From contig JAOARC010000036.1 in assembly GCA_025210745.1 (NCBI GenBank), positions 1-64,000 on the forward strand: a DNA stretch of 64,000 nt, in the 5' to 3' direction. How positions within the stretch are numbered: the stretch's first letter is position 1; each line of letters opens with the position of its first letter. The notes under the pieces were generated by a model. The model worked only from the letters and a program-made list of their open reading frames with translations. It made no database searches and was not told the origin of the DNA. The position numbers and the translations under genes were made by a program. The DNA is from Bacteriovoracaceae bacterium (GTDB lineage: Bacteria; Bdellovibrionota; Bacteriovoracia; Bacteriovoracales; Bacteriovoracaceae). Below are positions 4,376 through 45,664 of the stretch, piece by piece.

Positions 4376-4675
4376 TTATTCGTCTTCTTCGTCTTGAGCT
4401 TGTTTTTTGATAGAGTAGAACTCTGCTTTTTCAGAGAACTTTTTACAAAGACTAGCGTAAGCTTTTGCTTTATTAAAATACTTTCTTCTATAAGCAGACT
4501 TTGCTTTGAGGTAATAAAGCTCTGCTTTTCTAAAAAGATCAGATGAGTGAACATCTGCTTTTGCTTCTTTTGCAGCTAAAAAAGCAGCTGCGGCATAGCT
4601 CATTTCTTGTTTTGGTCGTGTGGTAGTTAAACCACACGACACAAGTATAAATATAATACTTAAGATTTTGATCAT
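4376..4675 (-). CDS. Small DUF4398-like lipoprotein
   Basis: 99 residues. The signal and lipobox are MIKILSIIFILVSC (Cys14), followed by a helical Ala/Lys-rich region (SYAAAAFLAAKEAKADVHS, then AELYYLKAKSAYRRKYFNKA) that has the alanine-rich, two-helix look of DUF4398 proteins, often found beside OmpA/Pal-type lipoproteins. It ends in an acidic QDEEDE tail. It is sandwiched between pal (TAATG overlap of 1 bp) and the cpoB-like gene (78-bp gap), so it probably acts in the same outer-membrane complex. Function is not known; the DUF assignment is from pattern only. Confidence 0.6.
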   Translation of the reverse strand: MIKILSIIFILVSCGLTTTRPKQEMSYAAAAFLAAKEAKADVHSSDLFRKAELYYLKAKSAYRRKYFNKAKAYASLCKKFSEKAEFYSIKKQAQDEEDE

Positions 4676-5178
4676 TATTTAGCAGTAACCATGAAGTTTG
4701 CTCTTCTGTTTTGAGACCAAGAAGAATCGTCATGTCCAAATGCTAATGGCTTTTCTTTACCATAACTAACAATTGAAATTCTTGATTCACTTACACCTAA
4801 AGCGATTAAGTAATCTCTAACAGATCTAGCTCTTCTTTCTCCAAGAGCAAGGTTAAACTGGTGTCCACCTCTTTCATCACAGTGACCTTCAATTTGAATA
4901 TCAACTGAAGAAGCAACATTTAACCACTTTGCATTGTTCTCTAATGCAGATTTTGCATCTTCAGATAAGTCACTTGACTCATAGTCAAAAAATACAGTTC
5001 TTAAACCACCAGCAGTGTTTCCATCGCTTGTTCCGTTAAGCTCTAATGCAAAGTTTTCTGCAGACATTGCTGAATCATCTCCAGATTCTTGCTCAGATTT
5101 ACTTGAACATGAAGTCATAGCTCCTAAACAAAGAACTAAAACTAAAGATAAAACATTTTTTTTCGTCATTAATTTCAT
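4675..5178 (-). CDS. pal: Peptidoglycan-associated lipoprotein Pal (OmpA family)
   Basis: 167 residues. The lipoprotein signal is MKLMTKKNVLSLVLVLCLGAMTSC (truncated here to the part that matters: lipobox MTSC), followed by a short Ser/Glu-rich linker and an OmpA-like peptidoglycan-binding domain (about 60-167). The domain shows VFFDYESSDLS, IEGHCDERG, NLALGERRARSVRDYL and RRANF, which include the Asp and Arg that contact diaminopimelate. It tethers the outer membrane to the cell wall and works with TolB. No tolQRAB is present nearby. It is the first gene of a minus-strand run (pal, DUF4398-like, cpoB-like, metallophosphatase, tsaD, rsmA). An AGGA-type ribosome site precedes the ATG. Confidence 0.92.
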   Translation of the reverse strand: MKLMTKKNVLSLVLVLCLGAMTSCSSKSEQESGDDSAMSAENFALELNGTSDGNTAGGLRTVFFDYESSDLSEDAKSALENNAKWLNVASSVDIQIEGHCDERGGHQFNLALGERRARSVRDYLIALGVSESRISIVSYGKEKPLAFGHDDSSWSQNRRANFMVTAK

Positions 5179-5388
5179 GAAAAATCCTTTTTTCTATTTT
5201 GTTAATAATAAACGTTATAAATTCCTGAAATTATTGTAACTAAGTTTATCTATTTTTGCATATTTTTATTTTTTCAAAAAAACGAAAGAGGTTTTTGCGT
5301 TGCGTTTTCTGACGGGGTGGGTGTTGGAGGTTTTGACGCTTTTAACTTCAGTTTTATGTTATTTTAGATAGTTAGATGCTTGTAAAAG

Positions 5389-5405
5389 TTGGCATGGCAC
5401 TTGCT
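5389..5405 (+). promoter_or_regulatory. Sigma-54 (RpoN) type promoter
   Basis: TTGGCATGGCACTTGCT matches the sigma-54 consensus TTGGCACG-N4-TTGCW at all but one defined position, with the obligatory GG (-24) and GC (-12) separated by exactly 10 bases. It points into a stretch with no open frame that ends 110 bp later in a strong terminator. Transcription would start near 5416. No upstream activator site could be recognised by eye. Confidence 0.72.
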
Positions 5406-5415
5406 CTATATATGG

Positions 5416-5513
5416 TGTGTGTGTTGAGGTTGTAGAAAAAGGATTTTTTTATAACTTCTCCTTATGTCTCTCAAAAAAAAAGCTCATCTAATTCTAGATG
5501 AGCTTTTTTTTTA
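5416..5513 (+). ncRNA. Candidate sigma-54-dependent small regulatory RNA
   Basis: Predicted transcript of about 97 nt between the sigma-54-type promoter and a terminator. It has a classic small-RNA layout. First comes a 5' tail, then a hairpin with arms GTTGTAGAAAAA (5429-5440) and TTTTTTTATAAC (5444-5455), which pair fully if two G-U pairs are allowed, closed by a GGA loop. A single-stranded pyrimidine-rich linker TTCTCCTTATGTCTCTC (5456-5472) follows, and then the terminator hairpin with a U tail. The linker carries UCUCC, complementary to Shine-Dalgarno sequences: it can pair over 9 nt with TAAGGAGAA before sucC and gltX in this window. No reading frame of note is present. Expression is inferred, not shown. 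Confidence 0.6.
5473..5513. terminator. Bidirectional rho-independent terminator
   Basis: Arms AAAAAAAAGCTCATCTA (5474-5490) and TAGATGAGCTTTTTTTT (5495-5511) with an ATTC loop. The A and T runs on both flanks make it work in both directions: it would end the ureohydrolase gene on the minus strand (stop codon at 5523-5525) and the small RNA on the plus strand. Confidence 0.85.
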
Positions 5514-5522
5514 TATAGACTT

Positions 5523-6380
5523 TTAATCGTTAGTGATAAATTTATATATTAAGCTTGCTAAATATCTAGCTCCTTTTTGTGATAGATTATCAAAAACTGG
5601 ATTGTATTCATAAATTCCAAAAACTTTCTTGCAATTAAGGTTTAAGCAATAGTTCATAATAGATGAGATTTCGCTTTTAGAAACACCATCATGATTAACC
5701 GCGCTTACTGCTTCCATTACAGATGAGTCTAGCGCATCAGCATCAAGACTAATAATAAGAACATCTTTTTGGCCAGGCTTTATATCTTTTAAAAAAGATA
5801 AATCTGAGCACACTTGCATATTGATATGACAAAGTTCTGTTCTTGTCAGTTCACTATTTGCATATCTGTGAATTCCGAATTGGTAGAGGTTTATTTTTTT
5901 TGTATTTATTTGATCAGCATCTCGAAATGGAGTTCCTGAGTGTCTAAAAGTATCAACCCTAGTGTCTAAATGGGCATCAATATTAATAATATGAATTGTT
6001 TCAACTGCTTTATCCCTTGATATAGCTTTTATGAGTGGATACACATGATCGTGTCCTCCTCCAATGTGAATCGTTTTATGTTCTGCTAAGTTTTTTTCAA
6101 TAAGAAGAGTTTCTTTTATTTGTGACTTTTCAAAATCAATTCTTTCATCCTGTTGGTTGGAAACTTGATGTACTTTTATTGATTCAATATCGAGATCATA
6201 CTTATTAAGTTTTCCAAAAGTATTTAAAAGAGCCTCTGGGGCAAATCTTGTTCCATTTCGACCTTGATTCAATCTTACTCCAATATCTGAAGGACTTAAT
6301 AAGATAGAATACTTAGATTGATTATTTTTTGTTGTATATAGCGTGGATATATAGTCATCTTTTCTATTTGTTGGTTTCAT
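5523..6380 (-). CDS. Ureohydrolase (arginase/agmatinase/formimidoylglutamase family)
   Basis: 285 residues with all manganese-site motifs of the arginase superfamily: GGGHDH (107-112), NIDAHLDTR (133-141) and SLDADALD (211-218). HSGTPFR (147-153) resembles the substrate loop of formimidoylglutamase (HutG), so hydrolysis of N-formimidoyl-L-glutamate to glutamate and formamide is the best guess. Arginase and agmatinase cannot be excluded, and no other hut genes are nearby. It stands alone: a terminator follows and a gene of opposite strand begins 32 bp upstream. Cytoplasmic. Confidence 0.8.
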   Translation of the reverse strand: MKPTNRKDDYISTLYTTKNNQSKYSILLSPSDIGVRLNQGRNGTRFAPEALLNTFGKLNKYDLDIESIKVHQVSNQQDERIDFEKSQIKETLLIEKNLAEHKTIHIGGGHDHVYPLIKAISRDKAVETIHIINIDAHLDTRVDTFRHSGTPFRDADQINTKKINLYQFGIHRYANSELTRTELCHINMQVCSDLSFLKDIKPGQKDVLIISLDADALDSSVMEAVSAVNHDGVSKSEISSIMNYCLNLNCKKVFGIYEYNPVFDNLSQKGARYLASLIYKFITND

Positions 6381-7770: not shown

Positions 7771-8619
7771 TTAAATTTTTTCTATAGCTTTTTTTTGAGA
7801 ATGTAATTTCTCAGCACCTTTAAAACGTCTTTTTTCGTTAAGTACTACTTTTGCTCCAACCGTTTCATTATCATGCTCAAAAATCATTGTTAAATCTTCT
7901 TTTTGAATGAAATGATAAAACTCTTTTTTATACTTTGTTGTTACTACTGGTTCAATATCGTACCCCATAACCCAAGGTATCGGTATATGATGTTCCATGG
8001 GAACAAGATCGGCCATATAGATGTACTTATTATTATAAGGATGAATCATGTAGGGAGTATGTCCAAAGCTTGTTTTGTATTTTATTTCATCTTTGCCATC
8101 TTTAATAATAATTCCATTAAGATCTGTTAGAAGATTTAATTTATGTTTTTCTAGGAGAGGTAAAAATATTTTTGAATGAAAAGAGCCAGCGTCTTTGTCA
8201 CTAGGTTTTTTAGCGTACTCAAGGTGTTTTTTATGAAGATGAATAGTTGCATTTTTAAAAAGAGGATTTCCATCTTTATCCCCAAGCCCACCAACATGAT
8301 CAAAGTGAAGATGAGTTAGAATAATATCACTAATCTCATCAGGGTAAATATTATTTGCTTCTAAAATTGAAATAAGAGGCTTATTTGTATTTGAAATTTC
8401 AAAATTCTTGATAAATTTTTCATCATGATATTCACCAATACCAGTATCTACTAAGATTTTTTTATTTTCTGTTATAAAGAGAATGACTCTTAAACTCATA
8501 AGTATCCGATTCTTATCATCAGACTTTATCTTTTTTTCCCATAGAGGCTTTGGGATAATTCCAAACATAGCACCTCCGTCAAGTTTAAAGGTAGATGGGT
8601 GTAAGACAAGTGTATCCAT
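7771..8619 (-). CDS. Metallo-beta-lactamase-fold hydrolase (lactonase-like)
   Basis: 282 residues. The dinuclear-zinc motif HLHFDHVGG (His103, His105, Asp107, His108), an LVDTGIG strand-loop (57-63) and downstream metal ligands (SFGHTPYM, YMADLVP) place it in the MBL-fold family that includes N-acyl-homoserine lactonases and related esterases. The N-terminal DGGAMFGIIPKPLWEK sequence is shared with a widespread bacterial subgroup of this family. The substrate cannot be told from sequence. No signal peptide, so cytoplasmic. It is a single gene, divergent from sucC with a 184-bp shared upstream region. Confidence 0.8.
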   Translation of the reverse strand: MDTLVLHPSTFKLDGGAMFGIIPKPLWEKKIKSDDKNRILMSLRVILFITENKKILVDTGIGEYHDEKFIKNFEISNTNKPLISILEANNIYPDEISDIILTHLHFDHVGGLGDKDGNPLFKNATIHLHKKHLEYAKKPSDKDAGSFHSKIFLPLLEKHKLNLLTDLNGIIIKDGKDEIKYKTSFGHTPYMIHPYNNKYIYMADLVPMEHHIPIPWVMGYDIEPVVTTKYKKEFYHFIQKEDLTMIFEHDNETVGAKVVLNEKRRFKGAEKLHSQKKAIEKI

Positions 8620-8803
8620 AAGTATATTCCTTCAATGAGTTCAAAGCTAAATGTAAGAATAAATCGTGCTTACGTCAATGAAGCTATGCATCTTTATATT
8701 TAGAATAAGAAGGTGGCTTTTTGAGCAAATATGCCTATAATTATAAAAGTAATTTTTTTAACAAAAGTTAGTTTTAATATAAAAAATAGTTTAAGGAGAA
8801 ACT

Positions 8804-44757: not shown

Positions 44758-45664
44758 CTCTTTGAAAATAGAGGTTAAACTGCAACTTATTATTCAAAGA
44801 AGATATCTCAAATCTTCCATTCATTTTAAGCATAAGACTTCTTACTAAATAAAGACCAAGTCCAGATCCTTTAGGAGAATCATGCTTATAAAAAAGTTTT
44901 CCAAGTTTTGTGATATCTCCACTAAATTCTTCTCCATTATCTGATATGGTAACTTTTGTTAAAGAATCAACTTGAGATGTTTTGATAATAATGTTCTTAT
45001 TTTCGTTCTTTACATGTCTTAATGTATTTTCAAATAAGTTTTTTAAGATTGTATCTAAAGCAAAACTATCACTTAGAATATAAAGTTCATCAAAGTCTTT
45101 AATATCAAAAGATATAGTAGGGTAGTTTTTTATAATAGCTTGTAGTTTTGACTTAAACTCAAGCTCAGCAGTATTTAAAACACCATCTCTTTCAATTCTT
45201 GCTAGTTGTAAGTGATTGTCTAGCTCATTTTCAAGTCTCATTGTCGATTCTTGTAGTCTTCCCGAGTAAGTTGAAAGAGCTGATTTATCACCATTTTCAA
45301 GATTTTTATTACTTAGAATAAGATCATTTAGCACTTGGGCTTGAAGCTTTATACTTGCTAGAGGAGTTTTTAGTTCATGTGTTAATGAAGCAAAAAATAA
45401 ACCAATAGATTTAGATTTTTTTCTATCAGCAAAGTACATATAAGCATGAGCAATTGATATAAATAAGATAAGCAGTAAAAAAACAGCTCCTTCCCATTTA
45501 ATCATATTAAAAAGATTTCCCATCTGATTTGGAATATCATGGTTTTCAATTTGTTTTGCTAATTTAAATACAAGGTATAGCCACCAAACTCCCATTAAAA
45601 AAAGAAAGCTAGTTAGAACACTTGTTCCTAAAAAGAATAGTTTTTTAGGTTTATTTAATTCCAT
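44744..45664 (-). CDS. Sensor histidine kinase
   Basis: 306 residues. Two membrane helices (about 9-33, 57-78) with a periplasmic loop of only about 23 residues, so it may sense a membrane or internal signal. H-box ASLTHELKTPLASIK (His96), N-box LKNLFENTLRH (about 213), G-boxes SDNGEEF and GSGLGLYLVRSLM. No PAS or HAMP domain. Overlaps hemL by 10 bp and the regulator by 14 bp. Confidence 0.92.
   Translation of the reverse strand: MELNKPKKLFFLGTSVLTSFLFLMGVWWLYLVFKLAKQIENHDIPNQMGNLFNMIKWEGAVFLLLILFISIAHAYMYFADRKKSKSIGLFFASLTHELKTPLASIKLQAQVLNDLILSNKNLENGDKSALSTYSGRLQESTMRLENELDNHLQLARIERDGVLNTAELEFKSKLQAIIKNYPTISFDIKDFDELYILSDSFALDTILKNLFENTLRHVKNENKNIIIKTSQVDSLTKVTISDNGEEFSGDITKLGKLFYKHDSPKGSGLGLYLVRSLMLKMNGRFEISSLNNKLQFNLYFQRGENG

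Follow-up and report, generated by a model that had tools for sequence, protein, structure and literature searches.

Several small RNAs are transcribed under sigma-54 from standalone genes, each with a dedicated EBP and upstream boxes: Qrr in Vibrio, GlmY in the enterobacteria, and CrcZ in Pseudomonas. The RNA described here, from the predatory Bacteriovoracaceae, likewise has a standalone gene under sigma-54 with upstream boxes, but the boxes are different, Hfq is absent, and Rfam holds no match. Against Rfam 15 the RNA rose above no gathering cut-off (the best score was 30.7 bits, with RsaE, against 79), and the Qrr covariance model, whose cut-off is 50 bits, scored it at only 15.5 and 19.2. 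The dual-function McaS and GadY RNAs of E. coli are similar in combining few GGA sites with a possible pairing segment; they are not sigma-54 driven, whereas the present RNA has a sigma-54 promoter in organisms without Hfq.

The Csr/Rsm RNAs (CsrB, CsrC, and RsmX/Y/Z) share with it apical ANGGA hairpins, an intrinsic terminator, a standalone gene, and a host that has CsrA. They differ in their many GGA repeats for multivalent sequestration: main-clade RNAs of the present family have one to three, a far smaller number than in CsrB, and the maximum is six, in genome G096. Because of these few repeats we have not filed the RNA as a member of the CsrB/RsmZ group, from which it also differs in its sigma-54 promoter and FleQ-type boxes, in the co-presence of fliW, and in the lack of an Rfam match. 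CsrA and RsmE recognize ANGGA or ANGGAN in a hairpin loop (PMC7652899), and the sites selected by the FliW-type CsrA of C. jejuni are mAwGGAs at stem-loop ends (PMC6692469). In a predatory relative from the same phylum, Bdellovibrio bacteriovorus, small RNAs include merRNA, which holds a c-di-GMP riboswitch, and the AP sRNAs, for which no homologues elsewhere were reported and some of which have FliA promoters (PMC3627812). Unlike merRNA, the present RNA matches no Rfam riboswitch. We found no open-access paper joining Bacteriovorax with CsrA, or Bdellovibrio with sigma-54 and a small RNA.

The RNA gene and its promoter

The window, by which we mean the whole 64-kb stretch of a Bacteriovoracaceae contig that was analysed, almost certainly contains a real small-RNA gene at positions 5389-5512. 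The gene lies on the plus strand in a gap without any ORF of 80 aa or more, between an OmpA-family gene (4675-5178, minus strand) and an arginase-family (ureohydrolase) gene (5523-6380, minus strand) that is convergent to it. A preliminary description had proposed a sigma-54 promoter, a gene-free gap, two hairpins, and a terminator here, and on re-check all of these were correctly placed.

The promoter, TTGGCATGGCACTTGCT (about 5389-5405, plus strand), has its -24 element, TTGGCAT, at 5389-5395 and its -12 element, TTGC, at 5401-5404. It had been called near-perfect, and indeed no other site in the window fits TTGGCAY-N5-TTGCW exactly, where 0.03 exact matches would be expected. Every one of the 61 named homologues with upstream sequence keeps both TGGCA and TTG[C/T], at a fixed distance from the RNA, as in other sigma-54-dependent small-RNA genes, and RpoN is present in 121 of 129 family genomes. 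This conservation of the promoter together with the RNA argues for the proposed sigma-54 control. As a separate observation, the promoter of the window recurs, identical over 21 bases, at locus L021 (G006:C25, about 45461-45481) before an unrelated gene whose product has a start resembling a secretion signal.

Transcription probably starts at about 5414-5417, at the 5' end of a GU run (GUGUGUGUGU, 5415-5424, plus strand) that lies 10-13 nt past the GC of the -12 element in all homologues. The predicted transcript of about 97 nt (5416-5512) folds into two hairpins, as had been described, at -33.7 kcal/mol (z = -6.7; none of 200 shuffled sequences equalled it). Hairpin 1 (5426-5458, plus strand) is supported by the fold, the count of apical GGAs, and covariation; GGA (5441-5443) caps its A-U stem (AAAAAGGAUUUUU). 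Most of UCCUUAUGUCUCUC (5459-5472) stays unpaired in this fold; within it, the alignment of homologues marks a near-invariant linker, AUGUCUCUC (5464-5472, plus strand). The intrinsic terminator hairpin (5473-5512, plus strand) is identified by the fold and by its self-match on the minus strand; being nearly symmetrical, it may serve as terminator for the converging ureohydrolase gene as well. A scan for consensus terminators flagged none at the 3' end of the RNA because the stem absorbs the T-run.

The ureohydrolase gene lies downstream of the RNA in 41 of 63 loci and the remaining loci have other contexts, so the RNA is independent of that gene. An artefact consisting of nothing but a terminator is ruled out, since promoter, boxes, and hairpin are all kept while the contexts vary. 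No EBP was recognized among the conserved neighbours of the RNA loci. At 21 of 63 loci, in one set of genera (L082, for example), the gene immediately upstream on the same strand encodes a conserved protein, some 100 aa long, with no assigned function.

Distribution and conserved parts of the RNA

Of 39 genomes searched at the DNA level, namely the window's own plus 38 relatives, 15 had matches, a few of them to the terminator or the promoter only. A pattern built from conserved blocks of the RNA and run over 84,980 species genomes found 64 loci. Two of these (L036 and L052, in an archaeal and a zetaproteobacterial bin) were rejected as chance matches; the other 62 belong to the Bacteriovoracaceae/Halobacteriovoraceae or to loosely named bins with the same architecture. 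The pattern contained GUGUGUG, [A/U]AGGA[A/U]UUUU, and UGU[C/U]UCUC, so their frequencies among the 62 loci partly reflect the search itself. It did not include the promoter, the boxes upstream, the stem of the hairpin, or the terminator.

Our covariance model, R1, contains terminator pairs only, since hairpin 1 was wrongly aligned at its foot by MAFFT; that hairpin was tested instead in an ungapped alignment of its own. Of the 129 family genomes, 97 have an R1 match (62 of the 73 good ones), representing 33 of 48 genera, and the RNA is nearly always present as a single copy. Genome G057 has two intact copies at different places (L098 and L099), and G044 has a second copy cut off at a contig end (L095, G044:C19). 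Over 240 genomes of the phylum outside the family, R1 gave nothing convincing and four marginal matches (E between 5e-4 and 1e-3).

Three parts of the RNA are near-invariant: GUGUGUGU at the 5' end, a hairpin whose apex reads AAAGGAU, and UGUCUCUC. The pairing of hairpin 1 is supported by a covariation score of 0.374, compared with 0.209 +/- 0.015 after shuffling and at most 0.167 for slid registers. Its seventh pair is formed in 43 of 43 sequences, as GC (23), AU (15), GU (4), or UA (1). Of 60 main-clade folds, 59 show GGA in the apical loop, compared with 31 of 600 shuffles; this is the placement typical of Csr/Rsm RNAs, and the replacement RNAs discussed below have it too, in a suboptimal fold in the case of genus g50. 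A few homologues carry UAGGAU in place of ANGGA. From these alignments hairpin 1, as a candidate CsrA docking site, looks like the most durable feature of the RNA. The best-conserved unpaired stretches are GUGUGUGU and UGUCUCUC, and the linker at 5464-5472 is a candidate site for base pairing or some other contact.

Promoter, hairpins, and an open linker are kept in the relatives; the anti-Shine-Dalgarno (anti-SD) stretch that the preliminary description regarded as the working part is not.

Upstream boxes and a candidate activator

Within 250 bp upstream of the RNA, 41 of 62 regions contain between them 66 palindromes of the form GTCA-N6-TGAC, compared with 0.1 in shuffles; spacings other than N6 are almost lacking, except N10 (9 cases). 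The boxes are usually paired, about 32 bp apart, and precede the -24 element by roughly 110 and 78 bp. Such pairs occur in 40 of 129 family genomes (none in the reversed control), and by coordinates and reading all are at the RNA locus or its replacement, with the exception of a contig-end fragment, G088:C119, in a genome that also has a normal copy. It looks as though one activator has essentially one target of the paired-box form. Paired boxes in G271, outside the family, were set aside when reading revealed no comparable RNA in the sequence downstream.

The paired GTCA-N6-TGAC arrangement upstream of the RNA is an undescribed enhancer. Full pairs occur in other genera; the window's genome and its near relatives have only TGAC half-sites, in the window at 5310-5313 and 5334-5337 (plus strand), where relatives have the palindrome. 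We read this region (5310-5337) as a degenerate activator site, and since only half-sites remain, the case for an enhancer is less strong in the window's own sequence. The single palindrome equals the FleQ box, GTCAAT-NN-ATTGAC (PMC10723142), and yGTCA-N6-TGACr is the box predicted for an FlrA/FleQ-like EBP in Desulfovibrio (PMC4641369).

EBP genes were sought in three genomes, and groups common to all three were considered. One shared group (L123, L124, and L127) has an N-terminal receiver domain, as in response regulators, a sigma-54 activator domain, and HTH_8; the best PDB sequence match of its C-terminal helix-turn-helix is FleQ (E = 1.3e-6). Its gene adjoins metK and lies near a second, short EBP gene and a flagellar cluster (flgB, flgC, fliE, and fliF), where the gene names come from sequence recognition; in all three genomes there are flagellar genes nearby. 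This conserved flagellar-cluster response regulator with a FleQ-like C-terminus is the likeliest activator, an assignment based on two matches, those of the box motif and of the helix-turn-helix. It had been suggested that RpoN would tie the RNA to nitrogen, stress, motility, or attack-phase signals; the FleQ-type enhancer and the connection with CsrA and FliW would favour motility over nitrogen.

Replacement RNAs behind the same boxes

Genus g50 has no R1 match, yet paired boxes and promoter are present. The g50 RNA has lost GUGUGU and UGUCUCUC, and can form two hairpins, GAGAAA-ANGGA-UUUCUC-like and GAAA-ANGGA-UUUUC-like (N being G, U, or C), in a fold that is suboptimal, 1.1-1.9 kcal/mol above the MFE. 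The RNA of G054 keeps GUGUGUG and has a GAAGAAAGGAUUUUUUC hairpin but lost UGUCUCUC, and that of G096, with six GGAs and two ANGGA-type hairpins, has lost both the GU run and UGUCUCUC. By their sequences, ANGGA hairpins are the feature common to the RNAs that replaced the standard one behind the same enhancer. A GGA hairpin is not unusual in any single AT-rich RNA like these (P = 0.07-0.26 for each); the weight of these hairpins comes from their recurrence at one homologous locus.

CsrA and FliW

CsrA is found in 119 of 129 family genomes, and all six sequences that we inspected retain their RNA-binding ends (signatures MLVLTRK and IHREEVY). FliW was present in 24 of 25 family members tested. 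In the window's genome csrA and fliW lie in one cluster in the order flgK-flgL-csrA-fliW (L117, 1103-4674, G000:C15). Hfq (PF17209) was found in none of the 129 family genomes, with positive controls, so the RNA falls outside the Hfq-dependent class and riboregulation in this family would be Hfq-free or use another chaperone. A generic Hfq-type blocker of translation, as first proposed, is therefore unlikely.

Because ANGGA hairpins recur, CsrA is near-universal, FliW is common, and Hfq is absent, our best reading, to which we give slightly better than even odds, is a FleQ-type, sigma-54-driven RNA that binds CsrA; for CsrA as the partner, in particular, the chances seem even or a shade better. 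The sequences themselves show the RNA, its promoter, the boxes, the covarying hairpin, the presence of CsrA, FliW, and RpoN, and the lack of Hfq; expression of the RNA, the identity of its activator, and the binding of CsrA with its consequence are inferred, and would combine as follows. A standalone regulatory RNA of about 97 nt, present in single copy and shared across the family, would be transcribed by sigma-54 polymerase once a dedicated EBP has bound to one or two upstream GTCA-N6-TGAC boxes. It would present one or more ANGGA hairpins to CsrA, which would be titrated or redirected, and in this way a small-RNA input to CsrA would be added to the protein input from FliW. GUGUGUGU and UGUCUCUC may add base pairing with mRNAs, as in the dual-function McaS; CsrA binding leaves the fixation of these two stretches unexplained.

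Alternative explanations

A trans-acting small RNA that pairs without Hfq with purine-rich ribosome sites through a UGUCUCUC seed, and perhaps through GUGUGUGU, would account for these being the top-conserved unpaired stretches, the GGA hairpin then serving as a stabilizer. In Hfq-independent systems C/U-rich loops do pair with SD regions, and base-pairing targets of the present RNA are possible. When the perfect complement of the seed was sought before start codons (GAGAGACA-N2-16-ATG) in eight genomes, counts were above the reversed control in some genomes and equal to it in several, and no recurrent target protein appeared among the matches read. In one genome, G125, a flagellin gene has GAGAGACA in its 5' leader, but the site is itself within a predicted hairpin. 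Moreover, the replacement RNAs behind the retained enhancer lack both stretches in g50 and G096 and lack UGUCUCUC in G054. We regard this explanation as rather unlikely.

The fixation of GUGUGUGU in the main clade, which CsrA does not explain, could instead reflect a structural or decoy RNA for some other protein, such as a reader of GU repeats. The GU run is lost in g50 and G096 and we know of no candidate protein, which makes this improbable.

The mechanism originally put forward, in which the linker UUCUCCUUAUGUCUCUC masks SD sites such as TAAGGAGAA before sucC and gltX, is very improbable. The 9-nt complementarity does exist at 8792 and 14118, but its frequency is that of chance, with three matches to TAAGGAGAA in 64 kb against 1.7 expected. 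The linker is mostly open as claimed, but the UUC of its UUCUCC is paired in the stem of hairpin 1. As a working part it fares poorly: of 62 homologues, 10 have TTCTCCTTATGTCTCTC, the full linker, and 13 have TCTCCTT, because this part of the RNA forms the 3' foot of hairpin 1, which varies along with the helix. A short peptide from the AUG of AUGUCUCUC, which is 3' of the GGA motif and kept in 51 of 62 homologues, was dropped as scarcely credible, given that the other 11 have TUG or GUG, lengths range from 6 aa to run-through, the frame enters the terminator stem, and conservation is at the nucleotide level.

Implications for control of CsrA

Small RNAs that antagonize CsrA have been held to be gammaproteobacterial and driven by BarA-UvrY, which is strongly anti-correlated with fliW; whether FliW species have inhibitory small RNAs was left open (PMC4682653). 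C. jejuni, a FliW species, has been described without small-RNA antagonists of CsrA (PMC6692469). We consider it conceivable, at somewhat less than even odds, that CsrA in the Bacteriovoracaceae is under two simultaneous antagonists, FliW and a dedicated small RNA switched by sigma-54 and a FleQ-type flagellar activator. To our knowledge, bacteria of this type are thought to control CsrA solely through FliW. If true, the proposal would break the rule that FliW bacteria have no small-RNA antagonists of CsrA, and would wire the flagellar programme of a predator to a global translational regulator. The RNA would also be a small-RNA family conserved across an Hfq-less predator family, in which riboregulation is almost unstudied. 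It is a concrete, single-copy, genetically tractable candidate in predators, with promoter, enhancer, and candidate activator named.

The flagellin leader of G125

The flagellin leader of G125 (L226, about 8000-8170; G125:C1 near 454,080-454,170) contains a GAGAGACA/UGUCUUUC hairpin complementary to UGUCUCUC of the small RNA. In order, it has GAGAGACA, a CUCUC-AAGGAUC-GAGA hairpin with apical AAGGA, and the ribosome site AAGGAGGA. By its sequence this leader looks CsrA-controlled and resembles the CsrA-controlled hag leader, in what is so far a single case.
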